Positions 757-20,573 are shown, numbered from the stretch's first letter. The stretch is 37,873 nucleotides of DNA from a virus (IMGVR_UViG_3300025759_000253:1-37873); one strand, 5' to 3'. Numbers and translations: made by a program. The notes: a model not told the origin generated them from the letters alone.

Positions 757-781
757 AGTGTTTGTTCCACTGTTCTAAGTT

Positions 782-2911: not shown

Positions 2912-2917
2912 AATAAA

Positions 2918-5695
2918 CTACTTTCTATATTGAAGAATGAAGCCAATTGATCCTGCTGATCCACCAGCAGAGAAGAAATTAGTGTAACTTACAACTACAC
3001 CATTCTTATCGACAATTTGTACTTCGTTATTACCATTACTTACGAGATAATGCTCATTTAAATTGATACCAGCTTCAAGACCACTGCACTTAGTAGGTAA
3101 CCAGTTAAATGAAATCATATCAAGTTCTGTGATAAACTTAGGAATATTGATTTGAACTCCTGAACCATCATTACCAATTGCAGAAGCATCAATAAATACC
3201 TCTACCCAGACCATAGGACCAGTTTCAGTGGTTACCTTACCATATTGCTCAATATAAGTTACACCCGTACTTGCATCTAAAGTAGGGGTGAAATCTTCAG
3301 TTTTACTGTTAGTACCACGTAAAACCTCAAAGCCTTCTGGTGTATCATAAGCAGAAGGTATTGTGGTTGTATAAGAAGCACCTTCAGTCAAAACTTCTGA
3401 AATATCATCTGCTCTGATATCTACTCCATTAGATGCAAAATCACCATCTTTAACAGATCCACGAGAACCTGCTTCAGCATAAAAACCTCTACCTGTGTTA
3501 TTTTTAGCTTCTATATTTTGAAGATTACCAAATCCACCTTCTCGCATATAAACACCGTTACCCGTGTTATAACAGGTAAGTAAAGCGTTTAGATCCAAGT
3601 TACTATTTTCAGCATAAATACCTGTAACATTATGAGCAAACACATTTTGTTTGGTTGATAATTCTTTTAAAGAACCATCATTCAAACGAATACCATAACC
3701 ACGAGTACCCTGGAAACCAGCAATTGTTACATATTCAATACCTATACTTGACTTACCAATACGATTAGATTGATCTCTGCCATCGATACCTAATGCACTA
3801 TTAGTCTGATCACCAATAATAGATAATGTGCTCATACGTAATTTATAACCGCCTGATGTTATAAAGGGTGTTACACCAGATGCAATAATATTAGCTTTGT
3901 AAAAATTACGAACCATATCCAAATCAGTTATAAGTGTGCCTGTAAAGTCAGAGTACACTGGAGGAATTGTTTTCGAATTATCGAATGAACCTTGAAGCAA
4001 AATACGATCACCATTAATACCATATAAACGAATAATGCGATCTACAACTGTATCCTCAGTCATAAGAAGAGTAACTTGCCCTTCACTACGGAAATCCCAA
4101 TCATTAATATATTCATAAAAACGTGGTAATTCATTTTGGAATTCAGAAGACAAGTCCATATTAACAAACCTGTCAATAGTTTTATGTGGTAACCAAATAT
4201 GAGGTGTTTCCATTGCTAGAAATGTATCACCAAAACGTTTACCAGCTTCAGTAAGAGCACTGCCTGTAAAATGTACCGTATCAGAAGTTTCTAAAAATGA
4301 TGTATCAACCGCAGCAAAATTCAAATTTTCACCTGAATTTGCATACTGTCTAATACCTAAATTAGCTTTGTCACCTGTCATATTTTCAGCAACTAAACCT
4401 GAAATAAGTTTTGATTGTTTACCCCACCAAGAGTAAGTTTCAAGTCTTTTAACTAATTTTCTAAGAGAGTCACGGTATTCAAATCCGTCAGAATAAGCAT
4501 CATCACTCTCTCCCTGCATAAATAACATTCCATCAACTTTTGTTGAAGAATCTAAAGAAAGACTGGAAATCATTGCAGTGATTTGTGTATTAATTTCATC
4601 AAGCTTATCTATAGCAAAATTGAACTTACCTCCAGATGTATATGAAGAAAATCCAGTCGCATCAACACCATCCAATACAAATGTACTTTCATTATGGTTA
4701 GTAGAATGCACCGAATAAGTATTACCATTAACTTCAGTCATACCAACAACATCACTAATAACAATACTATTGTTATTCAATACTTTTGGGTTACCAATAT
4801 AAGTAACTACGGCTGGATTAGTGTTTGTGATGTTTGTAATTATAAAATCTTCATTCAACCAATAGTTGATAGCCAAACCACCTTGGGCATTCATAACCAT
4901 ATGATATTCTACATCATCACCCTCAACTAATTGAGCATGTCTAGCAGCTTGTAAAAACATATTATTTTCACCTGTAACTCTAAATGGTGCATTACCTAAT
5001 TCTGCTACAGATGATGTATTTGTTACATCGTCCCATATAAACACATTGTTATTAATTGGTGTGTCACCACCAAAATTATTACCAAGTCCATTTGACTGAC
5101 CAGAACAAATAATTAAACGTTTAGTTCTATTGCGGATATTCCTGCTAATTGTACTACCAACACTAGTAATTAGAGAAGAAGTTTCATCACGAAATGTCTC
5201 AGCTTCATTACGATATGTTTCTGCTGCATCTGCAATTGCTTGTACAGAGGTCTCAGCAGAATCTTTAATGGCTTGAACAGCAGCATGAGTTGCAGCAGCT
5301 TTAAGAGCATGGTGCATTGCAGAGTACAAACCAGGAGTTACTTCAGTATCTTCAGCTTCACCTGCCCATTTTGCTGCAATATCAGCGTTAGCCTGAATTT
5401 CATCAGCCAAAGCATCTAAAGAAGCACGGTTAGTGATCAATGTATTTAGATTGGCATAAAATGTAGCCAAATCTGTAAGATTATCACTCGTGAAGTTCAG
5501 AGCATCATCTTGAGTGCTCAGTTTGATCAGATCAGCCAAATTAGTATGGATGTCAAAAAGACTTTCCATGTAATGAGATACATGACGGATTTCCGCCAAG
5601 TTTTCATTAACATTTTCAATGACAAGATAAAGCTCACCGAGCTTTTTATCTACCAATTGACTAAGATTATGTGAAATTTCGCTTGTAGGACGCAT
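2918..5695 (-). CDS. Tail fibre with SASA/SGNH esterase and beta-helix domains
   Basis: 925 residues. Residues 1-105 are helical and coiled-coil-like. About 107-133 carry the same fibre module as the downstream gene (SAMHHALKAA), followed by Ala/Glu-rich helices to 180. From 193 an SGNH hydrolase of the sialate O-acetylesterase (SASA) type is visible: GQSN at 199-202 with Ser201 as nucleophile, QGESD at 394-398 and DTVH with Asp472/His475. It probably de-O-acetylates host capsule or LPS. Between the first two blocks (about 285-360) sits an FCCH-like small beta domain (VVTYIGNP, GMTEVNG, SSYTSGGK). Residues about 600-765 form beta-helix repeats, followed by a C-terminal beta domain. Its start overlaps the stop of the upstream gene as TAATG. 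Confidence 0.85.
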   Translation of the reverse strand: MRPTSEISHNLSQLVDKKLGELYLVIENVNENLAEIRHVSHYMESLFDIHTNLADLIKLSTQDDALNFTSDNLTDLATFYANLNTLITNRASLDALADEIQANADIAAKWAGEAEDTEVTPGLYSAMHHALKAAATHAAVQAIKDSAETSVQAIADAAETYRNEAETFRDETSSLITSVGSTISRNIRNRTKRLIICSGQSNGLGNNFGGDTPINNNVFIWDDVTNTSSVAELGNAPFRVTGENNMFLQAARHAQLVEGDDVEYHMVMNAQGGLAINYWLNEDFIITNITNTNPAVVTYIGNPKVLNNNSIVISDVVGMTEVNGNTYSVHSTNHNESTFVLDGVDATGFSSYTSGGKFNFAIDKLDEINTQITAMISSLSLDSSTKVDGMLFMQGESDDAYSDGFEYRDSLRKLVKRLETYSWWGKQSKLISGLVAENMTGDKANLGIRQYANSGENLNFAAVDTSFLETSDTVHFTGSALTEAGKRFGDTFLAMETPHIWLPHKTIDRFVNMDLSSEFQNELPRFYEYINDWDFRSEGQVTLLMTEDTVVDRIIRLYGINGDRILLQGSFDNSKTIPPVYSDFTGTLITDLDMVRNFYKANIIASGVTPFITSGGYKLRMSTLSIIGDQTNSALGIDGRDQSNRIGKSSIGIEYVTIAGFQGTRGYGIRLNDGSLKELSTKQNVFAHNVTGIYAENSNLDLNALLTCYNTGNGVYMREGGFGNLQNIEAKNNTGRGFYAEAGSRGSVKDGDFASNGVDIRADDISEVLTEGASYTTTIPSAYDTPEGFEVLRGTNSKTEDFTPTLDASTGVTYIEQYGKVTTETGPMVWVEVFIDASAIGNDGSGVQINIPKFITELDMISFNWLPTKCSGLEAGINLNEHYLVSNGNNEVQIVDKNGVVVSYTNFFSAGGSAGSIGFILQYRK

Positions 5696-6402
5696 TAGAC
5701 GAACCCTCTCTTGATAAGTTTAGTGTTTGTTGTGGTTACGCTTGTCCTAACCAGATCTTTACTCTCTGTATCAGAACACTTAGCCTCATACAACTGCATA
5801 TTTTGCAACGACTGGGCGGTATTACCTTCACCTTGCATGTTACCAAGGACTTTACCTGTAACATAATACTTAAGAGCTTCATGTAAGAAGATAGGGAGAA
5901 CAACCTTCTGTTTATCAAGGTATTTAGTCACAAGTTTGTTATGACTTGCCTGATAATGTACGAAGAAACGATCACTTTGGTGAACGTCAGTGATTTGAAG
6001 TGCATCGAAAGATGGGGTGAATACTGAAAGAGGTTGTTCATAATCATTTACGTACAGCTCTTGACCCTCAGAGTCATAAACCTGAAGGATTTTAATGAAG
6101 TTACCGTCAAATTTATCATGTTCGGTATCTTCAAGGTATTTCCAGGGAACTGTTGATTCTTTGTTAGATTGTGCGAACTCAGGACGCAAATAATACTCAG
6201 TGAATGGAGATTTACGTTTTACGATAACTTCACGCTGGGACAGAATGAATTTTGTATATAGATCTGTCAAAGCTTGATTAACATACAAAACGACCTTATC
6301 CAGAGACTTCTCGTCAATCTGGGTTGGGTCATTTCGGTCAACTACTGAGAAGTTACTCAACTCACCCAGTGCTAGATCTTTAAGCAGCTCTTCTAACGTC
6401 AT
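5695..6402 (-). CDS. Virion structural protein, adaptor-like (N4 gp67-like position)
   Basis: 235 residues, soluble, mixed helix and strand. A helical N-terminus (TLEELLKDLALGELS) precedes a segment predicting assembly contacts (VNQALTDLYTKF). A C-terminal helical hairpin holds HEALKYYVTGKVLGN and ends in a flexible basic tail. The fold pattern and size recall head-tail adaptor proteins of podoviruses. In N4-like genomes a structural protein of about 30 kDa sits directly after the large terminase, which is the position here (9 nt after terL). The identification rests on synteny and general pattern, not on a diagnostic motif. Confidence 0.6.
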   Translation of the reverse strand: MTLEELLKDLALGELSNFSVVDRNDPTQIDEKSLDKVVLYVNQALTDLYTKFILSQREVIVKRKSPFTEYYLRPEFAQSNKESTVPWKYLEDTEHDKFDGNFIKILQVYDSEGQELYVNDYEQPLSVFTPSFDALQITDVHQSDRFFVHYQASHNKLVTKYLDKQKVVLPIFLHEALKYYVTGKVLGNMQGEGNTAQSLQNMQLYEAKCSDTESKDLVRTSVTTTNTKLIKRGFV

Positions 6403-6411
6403 TTCAGCCTC

Positions 6412-8013
6412 TTATATAATGTAAGATGCTAATGCTGATCCTTGGTCATCATCATCATCAATTTCCCACACAGAGGTTACATTACTCTTTACTGGAACCT
6501 CTTCGCTTGGCTTCCATGCCTGTAAGTTCATTAGCATTGAAATGGTATCAAGGCAATCATCTTTACCTTTTAGACCGTTTACAGTAGCTAATTTCAGTTG
6601 TGACATGAAGTTACCCATGATCACACTATCTCTCATCTCGTCAGGGAAGTAAATCTTACCAGCTTTAAATAAAGGAACCACGAGATTAAAACGACTTAAT
6701 TTGTTAATGGTCGGTCTAATACCTGGCTTGCCCTTTTCCATTGCGAAGTTGAAGAAAATATTTCTGCTCATTTGTTCGCGTTGGAGCCACTGGATAAATG
6801 CGTTCTGTTGGCCCGTGATTTCCACACCAACAGCCTGTGGTTTGTATTCTTGCACTAATCTAAACAAATCGTCAATACTTTTGTCCATTGTTTGTCTTTC
6901 ACACACACCATCAACCCAGAACCAATCACCATTATGGTTATAGGCCCAAACCGAGATAACACTGAAGTCAGCGGTCTCTTTATCTGATGTAGCAAAGTCA
7001 GTGGTGACATAAAAATTAAAGCGTCCTCTATTCTCTAAAAGACTTTTACGAGCGAACCAACGGATCTCATCATCCTGTACTAGACGTTCCTCAGATGAGG
7101 AAATTCGTAGCATCAATTCCTGATTGAACGCTGAGAGCTTACCTGTCAGTTTCGAGTCTTCATATTGTTGTTGTACAAATTCATAGGTGAAACGATCTTC
7201 CCAAGCTCCTCGGAATTCTTCTCGTGAACAAGGGAACTTCTCACAAATAGGCCAAACGTTAACATCCCATGCACCAGACTCCACCGCTTCATAAAGGATA
7301 TCATCCTTATTAAAGGGTGTACCATTGAAGATAATCTTCCGTCTTGTTGGGTCAAGAGCGTAATCAACACCCTTGTAAATAGTGTCTTTGATTGCTTGCA
7401 TAGCGACTTTAGACTTCGCATCATCATCTGATACTAAGTCATCGAGTACAGCCAAAGGAGGACGTTTACCAAAGATTTTAGTACCACGAAGACCAGTCTT
7501 AGCACCAAACATCTTTACACCAAGACGACCACCGTCTTTGTTACCAAACTCCATATAACTGTCTGTGAAGTTTGCTTTTGGCAACCATTCCTGAAGAAAC
7601 GCTGAAGAGTGATATCTGAACTCAATGTTCTTTCTTGCTGACTTTACACCGTTTTCCATAGAGTCAGATACGTAAATCATACTGTCGAGCTTACCAAAGC
7701 CGTCAATTTCACCAAAAACAGCTACATATAGCACTAAATACTCGAACATTAGGGTAGTTTTAGCCATACCACGAGCACATAGATTAGCAACTCTTTGCTT
7801 CTTCCCAGAGATCTTATCGAGCATTTTCAGGTGAACAACAGGTGTTTTGTGTGCTTCACCCTCTTTACCATTCACCAATTTAATGAAGTTCATGAATTTC
7901 AAAGCAAATGTAGAAGGAATATACTGACCACTGTTCAATGAGTCGTAATCTACCTGATCTAACCATTCATCAACTGTTTTGAACTTTGAAAGTTCTACTT
8001 CAAGATTATCCAT
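6412..8013 (-). CDS. terL: Terminase large subunit (N4 gp68-like)
   Basis: 533 residues. This packaging motor cuts concatemeric DNA and pumps it into the prohead. ATPase part: a variant Walker A, ARGMAKTT at 80-87, Walker B LAVLDD at 187-192, and coupling motif NGTP at 230-233. Nuclease part (RNase H-like): Asp339 in TTDF, Glu398 in VGVEITG, and an acidic cluster KGKDDCLD at 483-489. The length is normal for phage TerL. It overlaps the upstream gene by 8 nt and is followed by the adaptor-like gene. The motif set is complete, so the assignment is firm. Confidence 0.92.
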   Translation of the reverse strand: MDNLEVELSKFKTVDEWLDQVDYDSLNSGQYIPSTFALKFMNFIKLVNGKEGEAHKTPVVHLKMLDKISGKKQRVANLCARGMAKTTLMFEYLVLYVAVFGEIDGFGKLDSMIYVSDSMENGVKSARKNIEFRYHSSAFLQEWLPKANFTDSYMEFGNKDGGRLGVKMFGAKTGLRGTKIFGKRPPLAVLDDLVSDDDAKSKVAMQAIKDTIYKGVDYALDPTRRKIIFNGTPFNKDDILYEAVESGAWDVNVWPICEKFPCSREEFRGAWEDRFTYEFVQQQYEDSKLTGKLSAFNQELMLRISSSEERLVQDDEIRWFARKSLLENRGRFNFYVTTDFATSDKETADFSVISVWAYNHNGDWFWVDGVCERQTMDKSIDDLFRLVQEYKPQAVGVEITGQQNAFIQWLQREQMSRNIFFNFAMEKGKPGIRPTINKLSRFNLVVPLFKAGKIYFPDEMRDSVIMGNFMSQLKLATVNGLKGKDDCLDTISMLMNLQAWKPSEEVPVKSNVTSVWEIDDDDDQGSALASYII

Positions 8014-8713
8014 CTACTGGTTCCTCTACAATTTCAGCATCCTCAACGTCATTTGATCGAACCAGGGGTTGATGGGCTATGGTTTTTGTTGAGCTACCGC
8101 CTTCAATCATTTCTTGCTGTGCTTTAGCCATCTCCTGAAGAGTGTCTTTAAGATCACGAAGACCTTCGCTTTCTTTGACGTTGATGTCTAGCTCCACAGC
8201 TTTCGACTCTGGTTTCTTAAGATGTGTCAGAAGAGAGTTTGCAGCATCTGCACGAACTTTCTCACTCTTCGCATTGAGCATTAGATCAGCTTGAGTATTG
8301 ATAGCTTTCTGATAAACATCTTGGTTCAACACATGAACAGGGATCAATGTTTGTTCAAGAACCAAGTTGACCAATTTATTCTTGTTGTATGCTGCGACAT
8401 AAGAAGAGATATCTTTATCTGTCTTACCAGCAGCAATAAGATTTTGATATCTACCAGGGAATGTACGAGAATAAGACTCTCTGTTATTGTACCCCATCAT
8501 CTTATAGCTGACATAAGCTACAGCATGGACATAATCATCTAATTTGAACTTACCGTCTTTCATCACATTGGTGTATGAAATGAAATTATCTCGCATAACA
8601 CGAGCTGCTTCAGGATCAGTAGACAGGTTATTAAGCTGATCCACCATATCTTGAGAAACGTTAGTATTTAGTTGTGCAGGTAAAGCACTCTTGACAGATT
8701 CAATAGTTAGCAT
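8006..8713 (-). CDS. Putative terminase small subunit (N4 gp69-like position)
   Basis: 235 residues, almost entirely helical and charged, with a disordered acidic C-terminus (DVEDAEIVEEPVDG). A helical core at about 50-165 contains YNNRESYSRTF and RADAANSLLTHLK. The KSEKVRADAANSLL stretch resembles the central oligomerisation region of small terminases. It overlaps terL by 8 nt and is the first gene of the leftward late block, as expected for a TerS that recognises packaging DNA. The start at 8713 has AAGG eight bases upstream. No clear helix-turn-helix is visible, so the call depends mostly on position. Confidence 0.5.
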   Translation of the reverse strand: MLTIESVKSALPAQLNTNVSQDMVDQLNNLSTDPEAARVMRDNFISYTNVMKDGKFKLDDYVHAVAYVSYKMMGYNNRESYSRTFPGRYQNLIAAGKTDKDISSYVAAYNKNKLVNLVLEQTLIPVHVLNQDVYQKAINTQADLMLNAKSEKVRADAANSLLTHLKKPESKAVELDINVKESEGLRDLKDTLQEMAKAQQEMIEGGSSTKTIAHQPLVRSNDVEDAEIVEEPVDG

Positions 8714-8746
8714 GATTCAGCCTTTAGATTTTGTTCCTATTAAGCC

Positions 8747-8774
8747 TATATAAGATCAGCTCTTAAAACACAAT
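8747..8774 (-). promoter_or_regulatory. Weak candidate promoter for late terminase-tail operon
   Basis: Read leftwards there is a TATATA box (8752-8747) preceded at 15-17 bp by a TTGTGT/TATTGT-like element. It lies about 35 bp upstream of the 8713 start codon. Late genes of N4 use host sigma-70 polymerase, so a sigma-70-like box here is reasonable, but the -35 match is poor. Confidence 0.25.
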
Positions 8775-8975
8775 AAATTTTTATTCTTTTTTCGGTTGTG
8801 ACTAAACTCCAAATAACTTATACAACAGAGGCGGGGTCGGACAGGGTTTTTGTTCCTTTCGCCCGATGTCTTATAAAACGTGTATTTGCTGTTTGGTCAC
8901 GTTAGACCCCGCATCCCCCAAATTCGATTTGCATCTGTACTAGGTTTGTTGATTGCCCTATAGTACAAGATGTAC

Positions 8976-9008
8976 GGGGAGAGGTTTTTACGTTTTTCCT
9001 CTCTCCCC
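8976..9008 (+). promoter_or_regulatory. Hairpin upstream of the 9034 gene
   Basis: GGGGAGAG (8976-8983) pairs with CTCTCCCC (9001-9008) around a T-rich loop. It ends 25 nt before the start codon at 9034. It has no following T-run, so it is not a classical terminator. Its role is unknown. Confidence 0.35.
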
Positions 9009-9033
9009 ACTCCATTCTCTAAAGGAACACGAC

Positions 9034-9306
9034 ATGAAAGATTCACCATTCCGTATTATACCTGTTGGCCTAGACAAATGGGCTGTAGAAGAAAAAAGGA
9101 CTGGATCCAACAATTACGAAGTGATCCAGTCCGATTTTGAAGCGGAAGGTCAAGCTGAAGAATTCATTGACAAGAAGATTGCGACTCGCAAAAAGATTAC
9201 GAAGCGAGCTGAAAAGTTCCCACCTCGTATTTATCCCAATCCTCGTGCCAATTTGAAAGTAGTTTCCTCACAAGAATTACCATCCTCATCAAATTCTAAA
9301 GGGTAA
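9034..9306 (+). CDS. Small hypothetical protein
   Basis: 90 residues. The ATG at 9034 follows AAAGGAACACGAC, a good ribosome binding site. The longer in-frame extension upstream has no such site. The N-terminal half has a strand-helix pattern (FRIIPVGLDKWAVEEK, then EAEGQAEEFIDKK), followed by a basic segment and a Pro/Ser-rich tail. This resembles small double-stranded-RNA-binding-like or ssrA-like folds only loosely, and no family is recognised. It stands alone on the plus strand between leftward genes and overlaps the metallophosphoesterase 3' end by 11 bp in convergent orientation. Confidence 0.6.
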   Translation: MKDSPFRIIPVGLDKWAVEEKRTGSNNYEVIQSDFEAEGQAEEFIDKKIATRKKITKRAEKFPPRIYPNPRANLKVVSSQELPSSSNSKG

Positions 9307-10540
9307 TTCTTGCTCTACCAACCTCACCAAACTCCTTGTCATACTCAATAGATGATAATGATCTACCAGCTAAATAACCATGCTGGTGGTGATAAGCATC
9401 TTGTGTGACGGGAGCTTGGTGGCTTTCGGTAATTGCACCACCACCCTCAAACACTCTCTGCGTTTTATGATGTACGTGGAAGCCGTGTGCGTAAGCATGT
9501 TTGGTTCTACCCCAAATCTCACGCCAACGAGAAGCCATAATCTCTGGCATCTTGTCCAACTTAGCCGCATGACCATGCGTTGCTGCCAACATCACTTTCC
9601 CAAATTCCCAATGCCAGAACAGAGATGGATCAGTGTCAATTGTTACACGTTTCTCATCACGATACCAAGCATGTAGAAACCATGTCATTGCAATAGCACT
9701 GTGTTCATCATGGTTCCCAGGTAAAATACGAACTGTAACATGTTTGTGTTTCTGTAGAGCAAGTTCAGTCTGGAATGTCAGAAGCTCACCTGCTTTACCA
9801 AGAACCTTTGCATAACGTGTATCAACGTCCAGCGTGTTACCTGATTTCAATGTACGGTTCTCAGAGTTATCTGCATGAAGCAAATCACCACCACCAAGGA
9901 TAACCGCTGTCTCAGTAGCATTACTTGCATGATGTACCCGTTGCATAGCTGTCTGATAAGCATCCATTGCAATAGGAATATCCCAATCAGTACCAGTCTC
10001 CTGACCCCATGCAAACAAACCAAGGTGCATATCGGGTAGAGGGTAAAACGTCATACGATCTGTAATGAGATTTTTTGGTTTTGGGAGTTCAAATTTAGGT
10101 CGTTTATAATCATTGAATTCTTCTTTAAGACCATCAATGAATATTTGAGCACCTTGTTTTTCAAGATCTGTCTTGTACCAAGCCTGAACAGTATCACCGT
10201 TTCCATCGACTTGTGTGGTCATTGCTTTGAGATGATGTTTCTCTGGGAGTTGGAATTGACCTTCCCGTGATTTTGATACCTTTACGCTTTTACCTTTTAC
10301 GTCACCGTCTGCATCGTACTGGGTACTTTCACCTGTGATCTCCATACCCGTGGGAACTGTGAGATTTGGAAAGCGTTTATCAAAATTCCTTGCGAATGCT
10401 TTTGCGAGATGTCGTCGATATGTTCCATGTTTGATACCGAGTTCTCGTGAAGCTGCTGAAGCGTTCTTATTGTTACGGTTGTAAGCAGCTAATGCGTCCA
10501 GACACTTTTGGTCTGTAATCGAATTTGTTTGTGAAGTCAT
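9296..10540 (-). CDS. Metallophosphoesterase with N-terminal HTH-like segment
   Basis: 414 residues from the ATG at 10540, which has AAGGA upstream. The longer frame to 10639 lacks a ribosome site. Residues about 10-50 look like a helix-turn-helix (ASAASRELGIKHGTYRRHL). From 165 all metallophosphatase motifs appear in order: DMH at 170-172, GGD at 217-219, GNHD at 275-278, HGH at 322-324, and a GFHVHH segment at 353-358. This is the two-metal calcineurin/Mre11-like active site, so it should be a phosphodiesterase or nuclease. The HTH suggests binding to DNA. It lies between the late and early blocks on the minus strand. The substrate is unknown. Confidence 0.8.
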   Translation of the reverse strand: MTSQTNSITDQKCLDALAAYNRNNKNASAASRELGIKHGTYRRHLAKAFARNFDKRFPNLTVPTGMEITGESTQYDADGDVKGKSVKVSKSREGQFQLPEKHHLKAMTTQVDGNGDTVQAWYKTDLEKQGAQIFIDGLKEEFNDYKRPKFELPKPKNLITDRMTFYPLPDMHLGLFAWGQETGTDWDIPIAMDAYQTAMQRVHHASNATETAVILGGGDLLHADNSENRTLKSGNTLDVDTRYAKVLGKAGELLTFQTELALQKHKHVTVRILPGNHDEHSAIAMTWFLHAWYRDEKRVTIDTDPSLFWHWEFGKVMLAATHGHAAKLDKMPEIMASRWREIWGRTKHAYAHGFHVHHKTQRVFEGGGAITESHQAPVTQDAYHHQHGYLAGRSLSSIEYDKEFGEVGRARITL

Positions 10541-10692
10541 ATGGTAGTTCCTTATCTTTTTGCAGGATCTGCATAGCACCGCAGTTGATACATGACTAGA
10601 ACATTTTTCCTCAAATGGGAACCAAAAGAGAAAAATCATTTCGTCATACAGCCCAAAACAGGAATAATATTTTTATCTGCATTTTCTGGGGC

Positions 10693-10720
10693 TTGACACG
10701 AAAATTTGGCTGGATATATA
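10693..10720 (+). promoter_or_regulatory. Strong sigma-70-type promoter, rightward
   Basis: A perfect TTGACA (10693-10698) is separated by 16 bp from TATATA (10715-10720); a 17-bp spacing gives ATATAT. This is the best host-type promoter seen in the window and reads into the early region. In N4 itself early genes use the injected virion polymerase, so a host promoter here is notable. Confidence 0.65.
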
Positions 10721-10775
10721 TGGGTTTCCGACGAACAAGTCGGGTAGGGGCTTTTGCTTGCCACAGTTGTGTTCA

Positions 10776-10790
10776 CACTCCTACGGAGTG
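10776..10790 (+). promoter_or_regulatory. Early hairpin promoter candidate 1 (virion RNAP type)
   Basis: CACTCC-TAC-GGAGTG forms a 6-bp stem with a 3-nt loop, lying in non-coding DNA upstream of the first early genes. N4 virion RNA polymerase recognises exactly such small hairpins (5-7 bp stem, 3-nt loop). Three further examples lie in other gaps of this region. Confidence 0.5.
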
Positions 10791-10866
10791 CTCACCAATC
10801 CTCTCGAACACCTTTTATTCACCGAATAAAACTGCTTCTCACCGCCAAACCCGATTCCACATAAAA

Positions 10867-10875
10867 GGCTCCGCC
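10867..10875 (+). promoter_or_regulatory. GCTCCGC heptamer with short stem
   Basis: GGC-TCC-GCC carries the same GCTCCGC core as the hairpins at 12798 and 14586 but with only three base pairs. It sits 46 nt before the start codon at 10921. It could be a degenerate or weak copy. Confidence 0.25.
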
Positions 10876-10920
10876 AAGCCCACCCTTTCTTTTATCTGTT
10901 AATTGTTATAAGACGTGCCT

Positions 10921-11082
10921 ATGGCACAAGATGATACAAAACAGATTAAGACGTTTGCTTCTCTTTTGGGTGATAACCCAACAGAATTTGAAGAATATAT
11001 ACCTTGGTATGATCGTCCACCTCCTCCTCCTATGACTAAAGAAGAGTTAGAAGAATATTTGGATGATTATATACCTTATTAA
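10921..11082 (+). CDS. Small acidic early protein
   Basis: 53 residues, strongly acidic. Two similar segments are separated by a run of five prolines: EEYIPWYD at about 24-31 and LDDYIPY at the C-terminus. The ribosome site is weak (AAGACG about 8 nt upstream), so the start is less certain. It is the first rightward early frame after the sigma-70 promoter and hairpin 1. Tiny acidic early proteins often inhibit host enzymes or mimic DNA, but this is only an inference. Confidence 0.55.
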   Translation: MAQDDTKQIKTFASLLGDNPTEFEEYIPWYDRPPPPPMTKEELEEYLDDYIPY

Positions 11083-11090
11083 TCAATGAC

Positions 11091-11215
11091 GATAATTAAA
11101 CAAACTCGTCGTCTCAGTTCTCCATCCTAAATCTTGTGCTCCCACCCTCGGCTACGCCGAAGGTCGCACAGAGATTTACGCTGTCGTTCTGCGACTCCTC
11201 ATTTGTTTAATTATC
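11091..11215. repeat. 14-bp perfect inverted repeat enclosing hairpin 2
   Basis: GATAATTAAACAAA (11091-11104) and its exact complement TTTGTTTAATTATC (11202-11215) flank 97 bp. That interval holds hairpin promoter candidate 2. The right arm ends 13 nt before the start codon at 11229, so it lies in the leader of the early operon. Confidence 0.7.
11144..11164 (+). promoter_or_regulatory. Early hairpin promoter candidate 2 (virion RNAP type)
   Basis: TCGGC-TAC-GCCGA (11148-11160) has a 5-bp stem and a 3-nt loop. The stem extends by three more pairs beyond one mismatch (ACC at 11144 with GGT at 11162). It lies about 65 nt upstream of the 11229 operon. Confidence 0.5.
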
Positions 11216-11228
11216 TTAGGAGAAAACA

Positions 11229-11420
11229 ATGAATAAGAAAAAGAATGCTATTAAAAATAAAATTAAAAAGGAGTTTCCAGAAGCTTATGTAAGCTCTAAT
11301 TATAAATTAGGTTTTGCTGTAATTGTTATAAGAAATAATTTTTATCATTATTCATATGATCATGATATAAATGAATTTATAAAGAATATCAAAATGGATA
11401 TCTTATTGGGTGCAACATGA
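11229..11420 (+). CDS. Early LLG-family small protein 1
   Basis: 63 residues, very basic at the N-terminus (MNKKKNAIKNKIKKEF), then a beta-like core (LGFAVIVIRNNFYHYSY) and a C-terminal helix ending MDILLGAT. The start has AGGAG upstream. It is first in a chain of five overlapping or close small genes whose products all carry a helix ending in an acidic residue, a hydrophobic segment and LLG or LMG. Its stop overlaps the next start as ATGA. No known family is recognised. Confidence 0.75.
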   Translation: MNKKKNAIKNKIKKEFPEAYVSSNYKLGFAVIVIRNNFYHYSYDHDINEFIKNIKMDILLGAT

Positions 11421-11683
11421 CAGATAATTATGTTGAACACTCTTATAACTTAAACCGACGAGTTATTGAGTATTATATAAATAAGGATCCTAATCTCTCT
11501 CATATTTACACTTGTAAACTAAGAGAACCTAAATCAATGAACTTCTATATTATGGATATTTATATCACTAGACAACACAAAATAGAGATTATTCATCCTG
11601 AATCATATAGTTTTGAGGAATTAATTTCTATAATTGATGAAGAAATCGATATGTGCAAGCTGTTAGGTATTAAAGATGGGTAA
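11417..11683 (+). CDS. Early LLG-family small protein 2
   Basis: 88 residues. It has an N-terminal helix, then strands (MNFYIMDIYITRQHKIEII) and a C-terminal helix with the signature EEIDMCKLLG followed by five residues. The layout matches its neighbours: helix, beta-hairpin core, then terminal helix with LLG. It overlaps the upstream gene by 4 nt and the downstream gene by 8 nt, so the set is translationally coupled. Function is unknown. Confidence 0.75.
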   Translation: MTDNYVEHSYNLNRRVIEYYINKDPNLSHIYTCKLREPKSMNFYIMDIYITRQHKIEIIHPESYSFEELISIIDEEIDMCKLLGIKDG

Positions 11684-11975
11684 TAATCTATACAAAGAAA
11701 GTCTTGTTACCGAATCTATCATGCATGGTCTTGAAGAAATAGGCCAAGGGGTTCAGGATATGTACCTAAGAGATGATTCTAAGCTCATGGTACTTATAGA
11801 TAGAGAAAACATCTCTGTTTTTCATTGGTTTGGTTCCAGGAAAGATGTTTTCAACAAAATTCTTGATGAAATTAATACCCATAGGCTCCTTGGATCGATT
11901 CAACCTCCCTCAAATGAAGCTCCAAAAGGTTGGGAATGGACAGATTACAAGGAAATAGTCGATGACCCATTATAA
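11676..11975 (+). CDS. Early LLG-family small protein 3
   Basis: 99 residues. N-terminal helix (about 8-26), beta core (KLMVLIDRENISVFHWF), then the helix DEINTHRLLG at about 69-78. Unlike copies 1 and 2 it continues for 20 residues with a Trp/Pro-rich acidic tail (GWEWTDYKEIVDDPL). Both ends overlap neighbours. The conserved LLG therefore lies inside the protein and not only at the stop, which argues for a true shared fold. Confidence 0.75.
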   Translation: MGNNLYKESLVTESIMHGLEEIGQGVQDMYLRDDSKLMVLIDRENISVFHWFGSRKDVFNKILDEINTHRLLGSIQPPSNEAPKGWEWTDYKEIVDDPL

Positions 11976-12315
11976 AACAAACTCAGTTTATAAAAATATA
12001 CATACTATTACATATCCTCAGTTTAGATTTTCTGGTTCAAGACACCAAGATCATGCTTATACAGATCGTTTAATGAAAATTATTAATACAAAAAACGTAT
12101 CTTTATACGATATAGAATTAATTTCCTCAGATTTGATAATTGTATATTTTACCCCAGACCATGAATTTCAAATTAAAGGCTTCCAAGGTGAGGAAATCAA
12201 AAAGGTTGCGTCCTTTATCATTGAAGAATTAGAAACATTAGTTCTTCTTGGTGTTATTGAACACCTTAAATATTTTCAAATACCTGATCTAAAATCAGGT
12301 ATTATGAAGAAATAA
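11962..12315 (+). CDS. Early LLG-family small protein 4
   Basis: 117 residues, the longest member. It has a polar N-terminus, strands (LISSDLIIVYFTPDHEFQIKG broken by a turn), and a helix IIEELETLVLLG at about 85-96. A C-terminal extension of about 20 residues ends in KK. It overlaps the upstream gene by 14 nt. Codon use is very AT-rich, like its neighbours. Function is unknown. Confidence 0.75.
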   Translation: MTHYKTNSVYKNIHTITYPQFRFSGSRHQDHAYTDRLMKIINTKNVSLYDIELISSDLIIVYFTPDHEFQIKGFQGEEIKKVASFIIEELETLVLLGVIEHLKYFQIPDLKSGIMKK

Positions 12316-12346
12316 ATCGAGTTAAATATATTAATAGGAGGTTAAT

Positions 12347-12619
12347 ATGAAAGAAAATCACAAACCTATTCAACAATACCGTTTTGCAAAAAATATTATA
12401 AACTCCCTCTTAAAAGAGGGTTACTTTATCTGGCACGTAATCGTTAATATTAATGAATTCCCTCCTTATACAAAACATGTAACTGTAAAAATGGATGAAG
12501 ATACCTTTATTAAGGTTTATGCTGCTACAGACCAAATTACAGTCTTTACACGTATGATCAAAGATGAAATTGATATCTTAAGGTTAATGGGTTTTGAAGA
12601 TAAACCTGAACCATTTTAA
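12347..12619 (+). CDS. Early LLG-family small protein 5
   Basis: 90 residues with N-terminal helix (YRFAKNIINSLLKEGY), beta segments (WHVIVNIN, HVTVKM, IKVYAATDQITVF) and C-terminal helix DEIDILRLMG followed by FEDKPEPF. The strong site AATAGGAGG precedes the ATG. This copy gives the clearest helix-strand-strand-strand-helix layout of the family, compatible with a small alpha/beta sandwich. It ends the first early gene chain. Confidence 0.8.
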   Translation: MKENHKPIQQYRFAKNIINSLLKEGYFIWHVIVNINEFPPYTKHVTVKMDEDTFIKVYAATDQITVFTRMIKDEIDILRLMGFEDKPEPF

Positions 12620-12669
12620 ATTGTGTTTGATAGTTCTGAATTAAGGATAGTCACAGTTTTGACACAATT

Positions 12670-12697
12670 GATTTGATTTCAAATCTCATATTTTTTT
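12670..12697 (+). terminator. Weak terminator-like hairpin
   Basis: GATTTG (12670-12675) pairs with CAAATC (12680-12685) over a 4-nt loop, and a run of seven T follows at 12691-12697. The stem is AT-rich and the T-run is 5 nt away, so strength would be low. It would end the LLG-family operon. Confidence 0.35.
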
Positions 12698-12797
12698 CAT
12701 GCTAGGTTTTTCGATACTGATGTCTGGTAGTAGTATTAACACTCCTGATCCCTCAAAGTTAATAGTACCCCCCCTACCTTTAACACTCTTAACACAT

Positions 12798-12810
12798 GGT
12801 GCTCCGCACC
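12798..12810 (+). promoter_or_regulatory. Early hairpin promoter candidate 3 (virion RNAP type)
   Basis: GGTGC-TCC-GCACC forms a 5-bp stem with a 3-nt loop around the core GCTCCGC. It sits 35 nt upstream of the ATG at 12846 in a 226-bp non-coding gap and shares its core exactly with the hairpin at 14586. Confidence 0.55.
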
Positions 12811-12845
12811 TGTTGAGTTCAACCAGCTAATCAGGAGCTATCATC

Positions 12846-13190
12846 ATGGCATCAGCAATCAACTCAGCTCGTAATGCGAGCGTATCTATCTTCGACTTGG
12901 TTAACAAGTCAGCATCAACCATCACAGACACAGTAGACTCAATCCAAAAAGCAGGTGACATCCTGCACAATAAGGTACGTGTACTACATGCAGCACAGAC
13001 ACAGAATACAGATCAAAAGATCTTAGCTGCTAAAGAACGTGATCTCATGACTATGGTCAAAGAACATACTACCTTCATGGTAGAGCTTCAGTCAGACATC
13101 GACAAAGACTCTGACTATAAGAAAGTGTTCGATGAAAATATGAAGAGATTCACTACAACTGTCTCTGAACCTTCAACTTCTGAGGCTTAA
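12846..13190 (+). CDS. Helical early protein
   Basis: 114 residues, nearly all helical, with low-complexity Ser/Thr-rich N-terminal part (ASVSIFDLVNKSASTITDTV) and a charged second half (AAKERDLMTMVKEH). There is no membrane segment. AGGAG precedes the start. It is the only gene between hairpin 3 and the large stem-loop at 13212, so it may form its own transcription unit and be strongly made. The family is not recognised. Confidence 0.7.
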   Translation: MASAINSARNASVSIFDLVNKSASTITDTVDSIQKAGDILHNKVRVLHAAQTQNTDQKILAAKERDLMTMVKEHTTFMVELQSDIDKDSDYKKVFDENMKRFTTTVSEPSTSEA

Positions 13191-13211
13191 GCTAAACCTT
13201 AACCTCACCTA

Positions 13212-13250
13212 AAGACTATCAGCAGTTTCCTCCCAACTGTTGGTAGTCTT
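13212..13250 (+). terminator. Large 15-bp stem-loop after the 12846 gene
   Basis: Positions 13212-13226 pair with 13236-13250 (15 bp, two G-T pairs, 9-nt loop). Only a short T-poor tail follows, so it may be a weak terminator, an RNA-stabilising end or an RNase III site between two early units. Confidence 0.5.
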
Positions 13251-13328
13251 AACCATTTAAAGGATAGGATAGTAGAGTTAACTATCACTCTAACTATCTT
13301 TAACTTTATACAACCTGGAGTACATATC

Positions 13329-13514
13329 ATGGACTACTGTACAACCTCTGATCTCATCAGAGCAGCTATGGCCTTAGATTCATCTCAGGTCGAAGTGTTA
13401 TTAGACACTCCAAAGCTCATCATGCTTAAGAGTCTAGTAACTGATTTAATCACTGTATGGAACTGGAAACCAGAATTCCAAATGTTCTGTATTGAACCAA
13501 TGGTAAAAGGATAA
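13329..13514 (+). CDS. Small hypothetical protein
   Basis: 61 residues with an N-terminal helical motif (TTSDLIRAAMALDSSQVEVLL) and a hydrophobic second half with several Trp/Phe. GGAG precedes the start. The spacing to the next gene is 4 nt, so it leads a chain with the exported and membrane proteins downstream. No family is recognised. Confidence 0.65.
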   Translation: MDYCTTSDLIRAAMALDSSQVEVLLDTPKLIMLKSLVTDLITVWNWKPEFQMFCIEPMVKG

Positions 13515-13518
13515 AATT

Positions 13519-13866
13519 ATGATTATCAAATCCTCTTTGTTAGCAGCAAGTATCATGCTCGCTGTTAACTTTTCAGGATGTGCTCCTGCTCATGCAGACA
13601 CATACCTGGATGATGATGATATTGGCTTGAGAACCCTCAAAGCCCTTAAAATCACCTCTGTTCGTATGAATAGACAACCTCAAAACTGTATTTCAGAAGA
13701 AAGACGATATGAACTCGTCAGAAACTGGAACTTTGATCTAATCCACGTATTTAACGGTGGTCATGGTCAAGTTTGGCAGAGCCAAGTATCTGGAAACATT
13801 ATGTTTACCTTCGAATTCGATGGAACTTCATGTGTTATCGGTACTGGTAAATCAACCCTCAAATAA
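13519..13866 (+). CDS. Exported or lipoprotein-like early protein
   Basis: 115 residues with a clear signal peptide: basic start, hydrophobic core (SLLAASIMLAVNF), then SGC at 19-21 and AHA before Asp27. It could be lipidated at Cys21 (imperfect lipobox FSGC) or cut by signal peptidase I after Ala26. The mature part has two Cys (in QNCISEE and TSCVIG) that could form a disulfide, as expected for a periplasmic protein. An early exported phage protein may act on the cell envelope, for example in superinfection exclusion; this is an inference. Confidence 0.7.
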   Translation: MIIKSSLLAASIMLAVNFSGCAPAHADTYLDDDDIGLRTLKALKITSVRMNRQPQNCISEERRYELVRNWNFDLIHVFNGGHGQVWQSQVSGNIMFTFEFDGTSCVIGTGKSTLK

Positions 13867-13877
13867 GGACTAATATC

Positions 13878-13997
13878 ATGTTAGAGTCAGTAACTGACAT
13901 CGTAGTATTCTACGGATTTCAACTCTTCCTACTTTGGGCTGTGTTTATGGGACTGAAAAGTCTCATTAAAACACTATGGTCTAAAGTATCAGGCTAA
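13878..13997 (+). CDS. 39-residue single-span membrane protein
   Basis: A short frame with AAGGA ten bases before the ATG. A hydrophobic span covers about residues 8-25 (IVVFYGFQLFLLWAVFMG) and is followed by a basic tail (LKSLIKTLWSKVSG), which predicts a C-in orientation. It lies 11 nt after the exported protein gene and 27 nt before the next membrane gene. Such tiny membrane proteins are common in phage early regions. Function is unknown. Confidence 0.65.
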   Translation: MLESVTDIVVFYGFQLFLLWAVFMGLKSLIKTLWSKVSG

Positions 13998-14024
13998 ACC
14001 TCAAACATATCAAGGAGATATCCA

Positions 14025-14201
14025 ATGTTTGATTTCACACACAAACACTTCTGGTTAGCTGCCATACTCACAATAGTGGGTGTCTTCTTGATCGAGACAT
14101 TCATGGGTACATGGGCTGTTATTGGAATTGTTATTTTCGTTATTCTTATTGCTAATCGCAAGAAGTTTACACGAAACAGTACCAACGACAAAGATGGCTA
14201 A
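14025..14201 (+). CDS. 58-residue two-span membrane protein
   Basis: Starts after a near-ideal AAGGAGATATCC. Two hydrophobic spans (about 9-25 and 28-44) form a helical hairpin, followed by a basic, polar tail (NRKKFTRNSTNDKDG), so both ends are probably cytoplasmic. The size would also suit a holin or antiholin, but its place in the early region makes a host-envelope role more likely. Confidence 0.7.
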   Translation: MFDFTHKHFWLAAILTIVGVFLIETFMGTWAVIGIVIFVILIANRKKFTRNSTNDKDG

Positions 14202-14242
14202 CATCTTGTTATCTTTAAACTAAAGTTAAAAGGAGTTAACTC

Positions 14243-14503
14243 ATGTTAACCATCTTATGTGCAGTAGCAACTGCATTCTTCTACTACAATGCAACAGAAT
14301 ATAACCAAGAGAACATATGGTTTATGTTCTATGGATGTCTATTCATGACAATCTTTATGTTCGGTTGCGAACTTGCATTCTACCTATTGAGACGTAATGA
14401 AAGAAAGCGTGAAGCTGAACTTCAAGATCGTGTTGACAGTGTAGTCTTCAAAAAACCAAGGTATGAAGCTTGGGGAACATCATTCCCAGCTCGTAGAGAC
14501 TAA
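14243..14503 (+). CDS. 86-residue two-span membrane protein
   Basis: AAAAGGAG precedes the ATG. Two hydrophobic spans (about 2-15 and 26-48) are followed by a charged cytoplasmic tail (RRNERKREAELQDR) that is probably helical. It is the last of four consecutive exported or membrane proteins. A GATAC/GTATC-type hairpin (about 14522-14545) follows the gene. The family is not recognised. Confidence 0.7.
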   Translation: MLTILCAVATAFFYYNATEYNQENIWFMFYGCLFMTIFMFGCELAFYLLRRNERKREAELQDRVDSVVFKKPRYEAWGTSFPARRD

Positions 14504-14585
14504 CTTCATTCCTTCCTACGGTGGGGATACAATCAGTATCTCCATCAATCCATTCTTGGGCTGCCTCTGTGCTCCCTCGATAGAG

Positions 14586-14600
14586 ACACGCTCCGCGTGT
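14586..14600 (+). promoter_or_regulatory. Early hairpin promoter candidate 4 (virion RNAP type)
   Basis: ACACGC-TCC-GCGTGT has a 6-bp stem, extendable by G-T and A-T pairs, with a 3-nt loop and the core GCTCCGC. It lies in a 176-bp gap, 79 nt upstream of the ATG at 14680. Confidence 0.55.
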
Positions 14601-14679
14601 TTTGGTGCTCTGTGGGAATGACCTCATTGAGCATTAATCAACAAAACCAACTACTTACATGATAAAAGGAAAAACAATC

Positions 14680-15072
14680 ATGGCTATTTTCGGTAAAGAC
14701 GAAGCAACTCCTTCAAACTCATCTGATCGTCCAGAGGCTCACCTTTGGTTGAACATTGGCGTTGAAGTTGACGTTCCAACAGCAGACGGTGAAGGCACAG
14801 AAAAGAAATTCATCTCTTTTCCTGTAAACCTTGCGCTTGACACAATGGAACCAATGGTTGCTCGTGGTAACAACAAAGCTTGGAACGAGCAAGTTGCAGT
14901 GAAGAACAAACTTCTTAAGTTTGCTCAGAATACTGCTCAGGCTTGTGAACCAGGTACTGGTGAAATCCTTGAGAACATCAAGGTACAAGCTTACAAGAAA
15001 GCTACTCCTTCAGCACCTGTTGCTGATGCAGAGAACTCTCTCTTGAAGCAATTGACTGGCACTATCGGTTAA
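14680..15072 (+). CDS. Abundant early protein candidate, unknown family
   Basis: 130 residues from the ATG at 14680, which has ATAAAAGG upstream; an in-frame ATG at 14659 precedes that site and is unlikely. The protein is soluble: a beta-rich centre (HLWLNIGVEVDV, KKFISFPVNLALDTMEP), a helix around 75-95 and a Pro/Ala-rich linker near the end. Its own hairpin promoter and its own strong terminator make it a single-gene unit, and its codons look more optimised than those of nearby genes, so high expression is likely. A nucleic-acid-binding role is possible but not shown. Confidence 0.75.
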   Translation: MAIFGKDEATPSNSSDRPEAHLWLNIGVEVDVPTADGEGTEKKFISFPVNLALDTMEPMVARGNNKAWNEQVAVKNKLLKFAQNTAQACEPGTGEILENIKVQAYKKATPSAPVADAENSLLKQLTGTIG

Positions 15073-15097
15073 TTCTGACTGCCTAAGTCTCATTATG

Positions 15098-15156
15098 ACG
15101 AACCTGTAGACCATTGCCCTTGATTGGACGCATTGGTACTACGGGTTCGTTTTTTC
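15098..15156 (+). terminator. Strong rho-independent terminator
   Basis: A 12-bp stem (15098-15109 with 15139-15150, one G-T pair) is followed by six T. The long loop contains further partial pairing. It ends the single-gene unit at 14680-15072. Confidence 0.85.
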
Positions 15157-15259
15157 TTAAAAACGATAGTTGATAGTTATTTAACTAACCTAAATGCTAA
15201 ATCCCAAAAAGATGACCTTATCGACTAAAGGTCACCTAAAGGATATAAGAGAGGCTAAA

Positions 15260-15475
15260 ATGGCAGAAACTCCAATAGAAAAACGTCTTAAAATACGTTG
15301 TAAAACGTGTAAATCAGAGGACGTTTTCCGTGATGCTTGGTCTTCATGGGATGTCGAAAAACAAGAGTGGGTACTCGAACATGTGTACGATGATGCCTAC
15401 TGCAACATGTGTGAAGGTGAGGTAAAACTCGAAGAGATTACCATGATGGATGTCCTCTTAGGAGCTGACTCATGA
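15260..15475 (+). CDS. Zinc-ribbon small protein with C-terminal LLG signature
   Basis: 71 residues from ATG 15260 (GAGAGG upstream). An in-frame ATG at 15194 would add 22 residues but lies before a small hairpin. CKTC at about 14-17 and CNMC at about 50-53 form a probable zinc ribbon. The C-terminus reads EEITMMDVLLGADS, like the early LLG family. The codons for LLG include TTAGGAG, which is also the ribosome site of the next gene. It overlaps that gene by 4 nt. Confidence 0.7.
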   Translation: MAETPIEKRLKIRCKTCKSEDVFRDAWSSWDVEKQEWVLEHVYDDAYCNMCEGEVKLEEITMMDVLLGADS

Positions 15476-15690
15476 GTAAAGGATCCTTCACCAAAATCAA
15501 ATTACAGTCTGAATATATTGATGCAGACTACATCAGTATTGGTCTTTCCAAAGAGACTGGTAATCCATTCATTCAATCAAACAGTGGTCATCAGAACACT
15601 ACTATCATTCACCCTTCATATGAAGAGCTTCAAGAGATTGCTACAGCAATAGAAAAGCTTCTTATGGACAGACTCTTAGGAGAAACATGA
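15472..15690 (+). CDS. Small beta-rich protein with C-terminal LLG signature
   Basis: 72 residues: beta strands in the first two thirds (FTKIKLQSEYIDADYISIGLS broken by a turn, then TTIIHP) and a helix EELQEIATAIEKLLMDRLLGET at the end. The terminal MDRLLG matches the MDILLG and MDVLLG ends of related small genes. The LLG codons again supply TTAGGAG for the next start. Both ends overlap neighbours (ATGA type). The order strand, strand, helix-LLG matches the early family. Confidence 0.7.
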   Translation: MSKGSFTKIKLQSEYIDADYISIGLSKETGNPFIQSNSGHQNTTIIHPSYEELQEIATAIEKLLMDRLLGET

Positions 15691-15947
15691 TGCTTTGTTA
15701 CAAAGATCAAACGTTTTGTAATGCAGAAGGTTGTAAGAACACCTCTTGTTCATCAAGACTAACCCAACAGATCAGTAATGATGCTGATAAGTGGGCTAAA
15801 GACAGTGGACTGTCTGAAACACCAATATCCATCACAGATGCTTCAGACTATTGTCTAGGCTTCATAACCCATACAACAACCAACTCGTTTGGTGATACTG
15901 TTATTATGGGTGGTGAACGTGTGATTGGAGTAATTCCAAAGGAATAA
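15687..15947 (+). CDS. Cys-rich small protein, probable zinc binder
   Basis: 86 residues (a start three bases later is equally possible). The N-terminus has four spaced cysteines (Cys4, Cys11, Cys16, Cys21) and a fifth near residue 57 (DYCLGF). The pattern CYKDQTFC followed by C-x4-C, and DASDYC later, matches a small family found in many phages that I know only as hypothetical. It is coupled to the upstream gene and lies 2 nt before the SLOG gene. Confidence 0.7.
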   Translation: MMLCYKDQTFCNAEGCKNTSCSSRLTQQISNDADKWAKDSGLSETPISITDASDYCLGFITHTTTNSFGDTVIMGGERVIGVIPKE

Positions 15948-15949
15948 TC

Positions 15950-16480
15950 ATGCAAAAACCAAAAATATACACTGGGATAGGTGCAAGGAAGACTCCTGAG
16001 CCTATTCTCAAGAACATGGAGAGTGCAGCAAGGTATTTAGCTGGTGAAGGCTTCATACTACGTTCAGGAGCTGCTGACGGTGCTGATAAAGCATTTGAAG
16101 CAGGTTGTGACTCAGTTCAAGGAAAGAAAGAGATTTATCTACCGTGGGAAAACTTCAACGGTCATAAAAGCAATTTCTGGAAACCTGGGCCAATAGCTCA
16201 TGACGTAGCTGCAAAATATCATCCAGCCTGGGATACCCTTTCAGATGGAGCCAAAAAGATGATGGCACGTAATGTCAATCAAATATTTGGTGATCATCTC
16301 TCAGTGAATACACAACTCGTTGTGTGTTGGACTGAAAAAGGAAAAATCACAGATGGGACTGGTCAAGCTCTTCGCATTGCTCAAGACTTTAAAATACCTG
16401 TCTTGAACTTCGGCTCTCTCTCCCTTGAGGAGATGGAGGAAAAACTGGTTAAATTTGTAAAGGAAACTAACCATGCCTAA
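15950..16480 (+). CDS. SLOG-domain protein (DprA-like nucleotide-binding fold)
   Basis: 176 residues. The Rossmann-like SLOG fold is shown by GIGARKTP at 9-16, the glycine motif SGAADGAD at 39-46, an EIYLPW strand near 67, and the C-terminal GTGQALRIAQ helix then IPVLNFG strand. SLOG proteins bind nucleotides, NAD or ADP-ribose derivatives, or ssDNA (DprA). Length and motif order fit the phage stand-alone version. AAAGGA precedes the start and the gene overlaps the next by 8 nt. The true ligand cannot be read from sequence. Confidence 0.75.
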   Translation: MQKPKIYTGIGARKTPEPILKNMESAARYLAGEGFILRSGAADGADKAFEAGCDSVQGKKEIYLPWENFNGHKSNFWKPGPIAHDVAAKYHPAWDTLSDGAKKMMARNVNQIFGDHLSVNTQLVVCWTEKGKITDGTGQALRIAQDFKIPVLNFGSLSLEEMEEKLVKFVKETNHA

Positions 16481-19535: not shown

Positions 19536-20351
19536 ATGAAAGCGGATTATCAAACCCAGGTAGAGTTCGAAGAACTGTACAACAAGAACCAGTTGATGGA
19601 TCGTCTTAGACGTGAATTCAATATCCCTGATGTTATCGCTCAATGTGATAAACATGAGATCCCTCTGAAGTTCGGTGTGGATCTATTGGTACATATGGTC
19701 ATTCACAAGCGTGCTACTGTTTCAGTGCTCGTAGGCCAGATGTATAAGATGTTCAAGGACGAATCTAATCCTCTTCAAGCCTGTGCTGATATGCTTCTTA
19801 AAGCAGCTCAAGCAGACTTTATGGATTGGAGTCCTTTGGATGAAGTATTTATCCTTCGGATAGATGTATCATCTGATGTTTATGAAGAGTTGGAACGTTA
19901 TCAGTATCCTTTACCAATGCTGATTGAACCCAACGAAATCAAAGACAACAAACAGTCAGGTTATTACACCTTACAATCATCTATGCTGTTAAAGAACAGT
20001 CATCATGATGATGATATCTGTTTGGATCACATCAACAGGGTTAACCTAACAAGGTTCCGCCTTAATAATGAAGTCGTTAACATGATTTCAAATTCATGGC
20101 GTAGCCTAGACAAACAGAAACCTGGGGAATACATCCAGGATTTCAAACGACGGGTAAAAGCATTTGAGAAGTACGATAGATCTTGCAAAGATATTTTCGA
20201 TCATCTCAACATGTGGGGTAATGAATTCTACCTCACCCATAAGTACGATAAACGTGGTCGTTGCTACTCTCAAGGATACCATGTGAACCCGCAAGGAAAC
20301 GCATGGAACAAAGCGTCTATCGAGTTCGCTCATCAAGAGCTAATTCAATGA
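19536..20351 (+). CDS. RNA polymerase subunit 1 (N4 gp15-like, N-terminal half of T7-type RNAP)
   Basis: 271 residues, nearly the length I know for N4 gp15. The C-terminal end KYDKRGRCYSQGYHVNPQGN corresponds to the T7 RNAP palm-entry segment DWRGRVYA...NPQGND, and the polypeptide then stops. The upstream YPLPMLIEPNEI and NRVNLTRFRLN resemble the preceding T7-family region. With the 20574 product it would form the heterodimeric RNAP II that transcribes middle genes in N4. The catalytic Asp residues are in the partner. Its stop overlaps the small gene that follows as ATGA, so the split is genuine and not a simple frameshift. Confidence 0.88.
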   Translation: MKADYQTQVEFEELYNKNQLMDRLRREFNIPDVIAQCDKHEIPLKFGVDLLVHMVIHKRATVSVLVGQMYKMFKDESNPLQACADMLLKAAQADFMDWSPLDEVFILRIDVSSDVYEELERYQYPLPMLIEPNEIKDNKQSGYYTLQSSMLLKNSHHDDDICLDHINRVNLTRFRLNNEVVNMISNSWRSLDKQKPGEYIQDFKRRVKAFEKYDRSCKDIFDHLNMWGNEFYLTHKYDKRGRCYSQGYHVNPQGNAWNKASIEFAHQELIQ

Positions 20352-20554
20352 GTTTTTACCGTTTTTCTAACGGTGTGTTTATTGAGGCTACTTCTTATGA
20401 AGAGGCTCAAAACAAACTCATTGATCAAATTAAAAATGAAAAAGAAGATCCCAAGCGATGGTATAAATGCACTTGCGTGGGGTTATCCCATCGATTTGGT
20501 TGTTACTGGATGAACAGAGATCCAGAAACAGGTGAAATTGAGATCCCCTTTTAA
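20348..20554 (+). CDS. Small protein encoded between the two RNAP genes
   Basis: 68 residues. It overlaps the RNAP subunit 1 stop by 4 nt and ends 19 nt before RNAP subunit 2. It is mixed: a strand [11 protein letters not shown], a helix [17 protein letters not shown], then [16 protein letters not shown] with three cysteines and a His that could bind metal. It shows no similarity to RNA polymerase, so it is an inserted gene and not a polymerase fragment. Coupled translation with both subunits suggests it could be a polymerase-associated factor or only a passenger. Confidence 0.65.
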
Positions 20555-20573
20555 TCAACTAAGGAAAAAGAAA

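Follow-up and report, generated by a model that had tools for sequence, protein, structure and literature searches.

Two short hairpins in the early region of an N4-like phage, at 12798 and 14586, are very probably early promoters for the giant virion RNA polymerase (vRNAP) that such a phage would inject. The case for them is built on the sequence rules known from N4, the spacing to a G at +1, position before homologues of gp1 and gp2, recurrence in relatives, and a covariance model made without any sequence from this phage. The preliminary description had proposed four such hairpins as vRNAP promoters; the proposal holds up for 12798 and 14586 and not for the other two, at 10776 and 11148, which in all likelihood are not N4-type vRNAP promoters. 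This provides two precise, testable start sites, 12815 and 14604, for an N4-like phage known from sequence alone.

The material analysed, referred to here as the window, is a viral record of 37,873 bases that is, judging from its gene content, a fragment of a Schitoviridae (N4-like) phage. Homologues of the Schitoviridae type include the heterodimeric RNAP1/RNAP2, gp2, the terminase and rIIA/rIIB-type proteins. A phrog_2125 virion protein, an ATPase, rIIA and rIIB are further proteins of the window. Among the matches listed, RNAP2 is ~45–53% identical to its counterparts in cultured Schitoviridae. The early region used as a nucleotide query found no match in phage records, and single-sequence scans with the window's gp2, 12846 protein and RNAP1 did not find relatives. 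One contig obtained with an exonuclease query (L034) was set aside; it has no rightward TNC hairpins and its early side looks unrelated. The window also carries a tRNA gene at 25243-25327 (Rfam RF00005, 57.1 bits) and, just 3' of the rIIB homologue, a terminator-like element at 36932-36958 in which a perfect 12-bp hairpin is followed by TTTAT.

Table 1. Features of the window discussed in the text
Feature	Coordinates	Strand	Remarks
Hairpin CACTCC-TAC-GGAGTG	10776-10790	+	6-bp stem, core CCTACGG
GCTCCGC heptamer	10868-10874	+	3-bp stem only; aligns with a heptamer in L004
Imperfect inverted repeat, 125 nt	11091-11215		Arms of 44 nt, 73% complementary
Hairpin TCGGC-TAC-GCCGA	11148-11160	+	5-bp stem, core GCTACGC
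Array of five tandem small early genes	11229-12619	+	Common C-terminal (E/D)(I/L)xxxxLLG-like motif
Hairpin GGTGC-TCC-GCACC	12798-12810	+	5-bp stem, core GCTCCGC
P1-type predicted vRNAP promoter	12798-12816	+	N4 rules; covariance match; hairpins before gp1 in relatives
N4 gp1 homologue candidate	12846-13190	+	hhalign E 2.7e-4, probability 41.5
Hairpin ACACGC-TCC-GCGTGT	14586-14600	+	6-bp stem, core GCTCCGC
P2-type predicted vRNAP promoter	14586-14605	+	N4 P2 layout; covariance match; gp2-upstream recurrence
N4 gp2 homologue	14659-15072	+	phrog_4099 (family of N4 gp2), E 7.7e-29
RNAP1 homologue	19536-20351
RNAP2 homologue	20532-21803

In N4, the strand recognised by vRNAP is the template strand; hairpin extrusion requires a 5'-G..A-3' loop with C-G closure and template -12A and -10G, and the polymerase contacts -11A/G, -10G, -8G and +1C on the same strand (PMC4496689). 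Read on the non-template strand, these rules become GCTYCGC followed by G after 7 nt. A scan of the first 12 kb of N4 for C-TNC-G hairpins returned exactly three sites, at 95, 564 and 4553, all with GG at +1. Given their number and their position before gp1, gp2 and gp15, we take these sites to be the known P1, P2 and P3.

All four hairpins with 3-nt loops that had been described in the window are present (Table 1), and they are more than chance would supply. The early gaps (946 nt) hold four GC-rich hairpins of this kind, whereas dinucleotide shuffles average 0.21 and none of 1000 reached four. Window-wide, hairpins with a T-N-C loop, C-G closure and five or more stem pairs number nine (0.57 expected), GCTNCGC cores with stems of the same minimum length number three (0.07 expected), and GCTYCGC hairpins with G at +1 occur twice (0.013 expected). 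The three full-stem GCTNCGC hairpins all lie in early gaps, and to this extent the earlier statement that the hairpins are confined to those gaps stands; it does not extend to 3-nt-loop hairpins in general, and five additional C-TNC-G hairpins are found inside genes. Loop size alone says little because the window holds 92 3-nt-loop hairpins with stems of at least 5 bp, 22 of them GC-rich in the stem. Stem covariation was not counted as evidence, since the hairpins were selected for pairing. The heptamer with a 3-bp stem reported earlier at 10868 is also there (GGC-TCC-GCC); it and the aligned heptamer of L004 both have A at +1.

At 12798 and 14586 the agreement with the N4 rules is detailed. 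On the template strand, both sites form a 3-nt-loop hairpin with a stem in the 5–7-bp range, and the extrusion determinants (-12A, -10G and the C-G loop-closing pair) are all in place, as are the purine at -11 and the G at -8 that vRNAP contacts and the C at +1, 11 nt past the loop centre (non-template G12815 and G14604). The 14586 site reads ACACGCTCCGCGTGT-TTT-GG, with a predicted start at the GG of 14604-14605, and has the GCTCCGC-N7-GG arrangement of N4 P2 and P3. The 12798 site reads GGTGCTCCGCACC-TGTT-GA, and its predicted start at 12815 is GA, not GG. The window's TCC sites thereby share with N4 P1–P3 the template-strand triloop, the non-template GCTYCGC and a G at +1 spaced 11 nt downstream of the loop centre. 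They differ from N4 in their stem sequences and in the GA start of 12798, and RNAP1 lacks a P3: no P3-type hairpin was found before the RNAP1 homologue at 19536. The GA start and the missing P3 count against the promoter reading.

The genes that follow the two sites also point to N4 (Schitoviridae, Enquatrovirus). N4 gp1 and gp2 are cofactors of that phage's middle RNA polymerase, and as with N4 P1 and P2, 12798 precedes the gp1 homologue and 14586 the gp2 homologue. The 12846 gene is a probable gp1 homologue, with a match to a profile of three gp1 proteins and a position and gene order that agree with N4, L027 and L049; direct BLASTP of its product against gp1 fails. For the gp2 homologue the true start is likely the ATG at 14680, which is preceded by AAAAGGA. 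The window differs from N4 in having an extra block of small genes upstream, with two non-conforming TAC hairpins.

Following the N4 model, host gyrase would supercoil the phage DNA after entry, and the template strand would then extrude a hairpin with a 5'-GGA-3' loop and C-G closure, to which vRNAP would bind through -11G, -10G and -8G. Rightward transcription would begin 11 nt past the loop centre, from G12815 into the gp1 homologue and from G14604 into the gp2 homologue. In this scheme the steps of extrusion, binding and initiation are carried over from N4; the present analysis contributes the sequence, the spacing, the gene order and the recurrence across the family.

Hairpins of the same kind recur before gp1 and gp2 in relatives. 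A gp2-protein alignment scan yielded 39 contigs with a gp2 homologue, and a C-TNC-G hairpin lies within 700 nt upstream of gp2 in 32 of them. With duplicates removed, the stretches upstream of gp2 (22.9 kb) contain 24 hairpins, or 1.05 per kb, and the opposite strand (323 kb) contains 15, or 0.046 per kb; GG at +1 follows 19 of the 24 compared with one of the 15 (Fisher p 1e-5). A hairpin also precedes gp1 in L049, L027 and L082. A covariance model was built from 32 hairpins of the gp2 relatives picked for +1 GG, none of them from the window, with TAC loops and -8C included in the training set. In an unfiltered search of the window, for which E-values are rough, this model matched 14586 at E 1e-5 and the 12798 hairpin, from 12797, at E 7.4e-4; the next match in the rest of the window had E 1.7, with 11148 at E 3.6 and 10776 at E 9.3.

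Among the relatives, G003 (IMGVR_UViG_3300009059_000024) has a terminase 69% identical to that of the window, and the model finds +1-GG hairpins ahead of each of its gp1 and gp2 homologues; the training set contained the gp2-side one, by way of L050, but not the gp1-side one. Gene order and hairpin positions in G003 are like those of the window, and both of its hairpins have GG at +1. It differs in the loop of its gp1 hairpin, which is TCT and not TNC, and upstream of this hairpin no TNC hairpin turned up. At L027 7447-7468, this G003 hairpin reads GACGC-TCT-GCGTC, followed by tatt and GG, with the TNC pattern broken and the +1 GG kept.

No gene for a vRNAP of about 3,500 aa lies in the window, as had been stated earlier, and a search with the N4 polymerase domain gave no match in the 37.9-kb fragment. 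The same domain found a match in every one of 29 relatives searched and, separately, in four more: G001, G002, G004 and a Rhizobium phage. Given its presence in these relatives, the vRNAP gene of this phage is presumably located outside the window. As a proxy for vRNAP, phrog_1636 is meaningless.

The TAC hairpins at 10776 and 11148 are not random, yet by their sequence they fail as N4-type promoters. Template -11 is T in both, template -8 is G at 11148 and C at 10776, and the non-template base at +1 is A (10794) or C (11165), leaving both with no template C at the start. A reading in which all four hairpins are vRNAP promoters is unlikely; the TAC pair would then serve the small-gene array as a class of lower strength or different spacing. 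The four share one orientation, and C-G-closed TAC loops with +1 GG do occur in L082 (twice), L084 and L053, the gp1 promoter of L082 having the identical core tcggcTACgccga. LIT1 (a Pseudomonas phage, Litunavirus) has hairpins with the same cores as 10776 and 11148, CCTACGG and GCTACGC, before genes 12 and 13. The LIT1 report predicts promoters for three genes, 12 and 13 among them (PMC3715699). The LIT1 TAC sites have GG at +3, whereas the TAC sites of the window have no such GG. The pair remains unsupported because it lacks the +1 G, has a pyrimidine at -11 and scores as noise even though TAC loops and -8C are represented in the model, because L004, the one relative with this leader, also has the gene array but no counterpart of these hairpins, and because 11148 forms the apex of a palindrome far longer than itself. 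In L049 a similar hairpin, CCTACGG followed by ACC, sits directly 3' of the gp1 stop codon and speaks against a promoter. Possibly, 10776 is a decayed or variant promoter.

That position in L049, together with the short GC-rich stems within intergenic gaps, would suit transcription terminators, but such a role for the hairpins is highly improbable. None of the four is among the eight terminator-like sites of the region, no T run follows them except the TTTT of the 14586 spacer, and hairpins of the 12798 and 14586 type lie directly 5' of gp1 and gp2 in many phages, with +1 GG.

For 11148, our preferred reading, in which we place about even confidence, is a structural role in an RNA leader, where the palindrome would act as an RNase III-type processing site or a stabilising leader hairpin for the small-gene array. 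This reading covers 11148 alone and is compatible with promoters at 12798 and 14586. The hairpin is not free-standing, forming the tip of the 125-nt palindrome, and its count of centre-spanning pairs is the highest among 119 TNC hairpins of this phage group. The palindrome has a folding z of -6.5 as RNA, with an MFE of -44 kcal/mol and internal loops of 1x1 and 2x2. It ends 13 nt before the ATG at 11229 and directly abuts the ribosome-binding site TTAGGAG (near 11216). Against an RNA role, the palindrome folds equally well as DNA (z -7.2), is present as a single copy, is carried by no relative and has no match in Rfam.

The products of the small-gene array, 63–117 aa long, have neither a Pfam family nor an informative PHROG. 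A block of ~8 proteins with the (E/D)(I/L)xxxxLLG-like motif occupies the same place in L004. Upstream, the leader at 10694-10766 has TTGACA and a small stem-loop followed by TTTGCTTGCCACAG, a 14-mer that is identical in L004 despite diverged surroundings. Among terminase-bearing relatives, a search for the leader motif TTGACA-N-TTGCTTGCCACAG returned L004's own contig only.

The comparison across relatives bears on how general the N4 promoter code is. The literature describes a promoter loop with a central purine (e.g., PMC6027278). This N4-derived rule, which has been restated for other phages, does not seem to be general across Schitoviridae, because TAC and TGC loops with GG occur in other members: L082 has TAC-loop hairpins with a correct +1 GG before both gp1 and gp2, and a correct +1 GG is also found with TAC in L084 and L053 and with TGC in L085 (twice) and L081. 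Most TCC and TTC phages retain the residues that make the -11 contact in N4 (K114, R119 and W129); W129 is replaced in every TAC/TGC phage examined and also in some TCC/TTC phages. Counted by hand, W129 is present with 16 TYC and no TAC/TGC loops and absent with six TYC and seven TAC/TGC loops (Fisher p 0.001). The vRNAP tree requires six or more changes of loop class, and the association loses its significance when relatedness is taken into account, with few independent pairs and none in the wrong direction. For L049, L081 and G001 the alignment is uncertain in the neighbourhood of residue 129. We regard the association as a lead, not a result. There is perhaps an even chance that the vRNAP promoter code is lineage-specific, with -11 pyrimidine or -8C loops matched by changes in the K114/R119/W129 element. 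If so, the TAC hairpins of the window could be a second promoter class. With the rule apparently not valid throughout the family, the coevolution of hairpin promoter and polymerase becomes directly testable.

Spacing varies as well. L029 (G001) has GCTCCGC hairpins at 6633, 7092, 8056 and 8691 with GG one base later than in N4, and at LIT1, JA-1 and pYD6-A sites GG is often found at +2 to +4; the later GG in these four phages suggests a lineage-specific spacer. In the first 16 kb (1-16000) of L044 and L037 (pYD6-A and JA-1) there are 11 and nine rightward C-TNC-G hairpins, respectively, and no leftward ones, with several of the hairpins beyond the RNAP genes.
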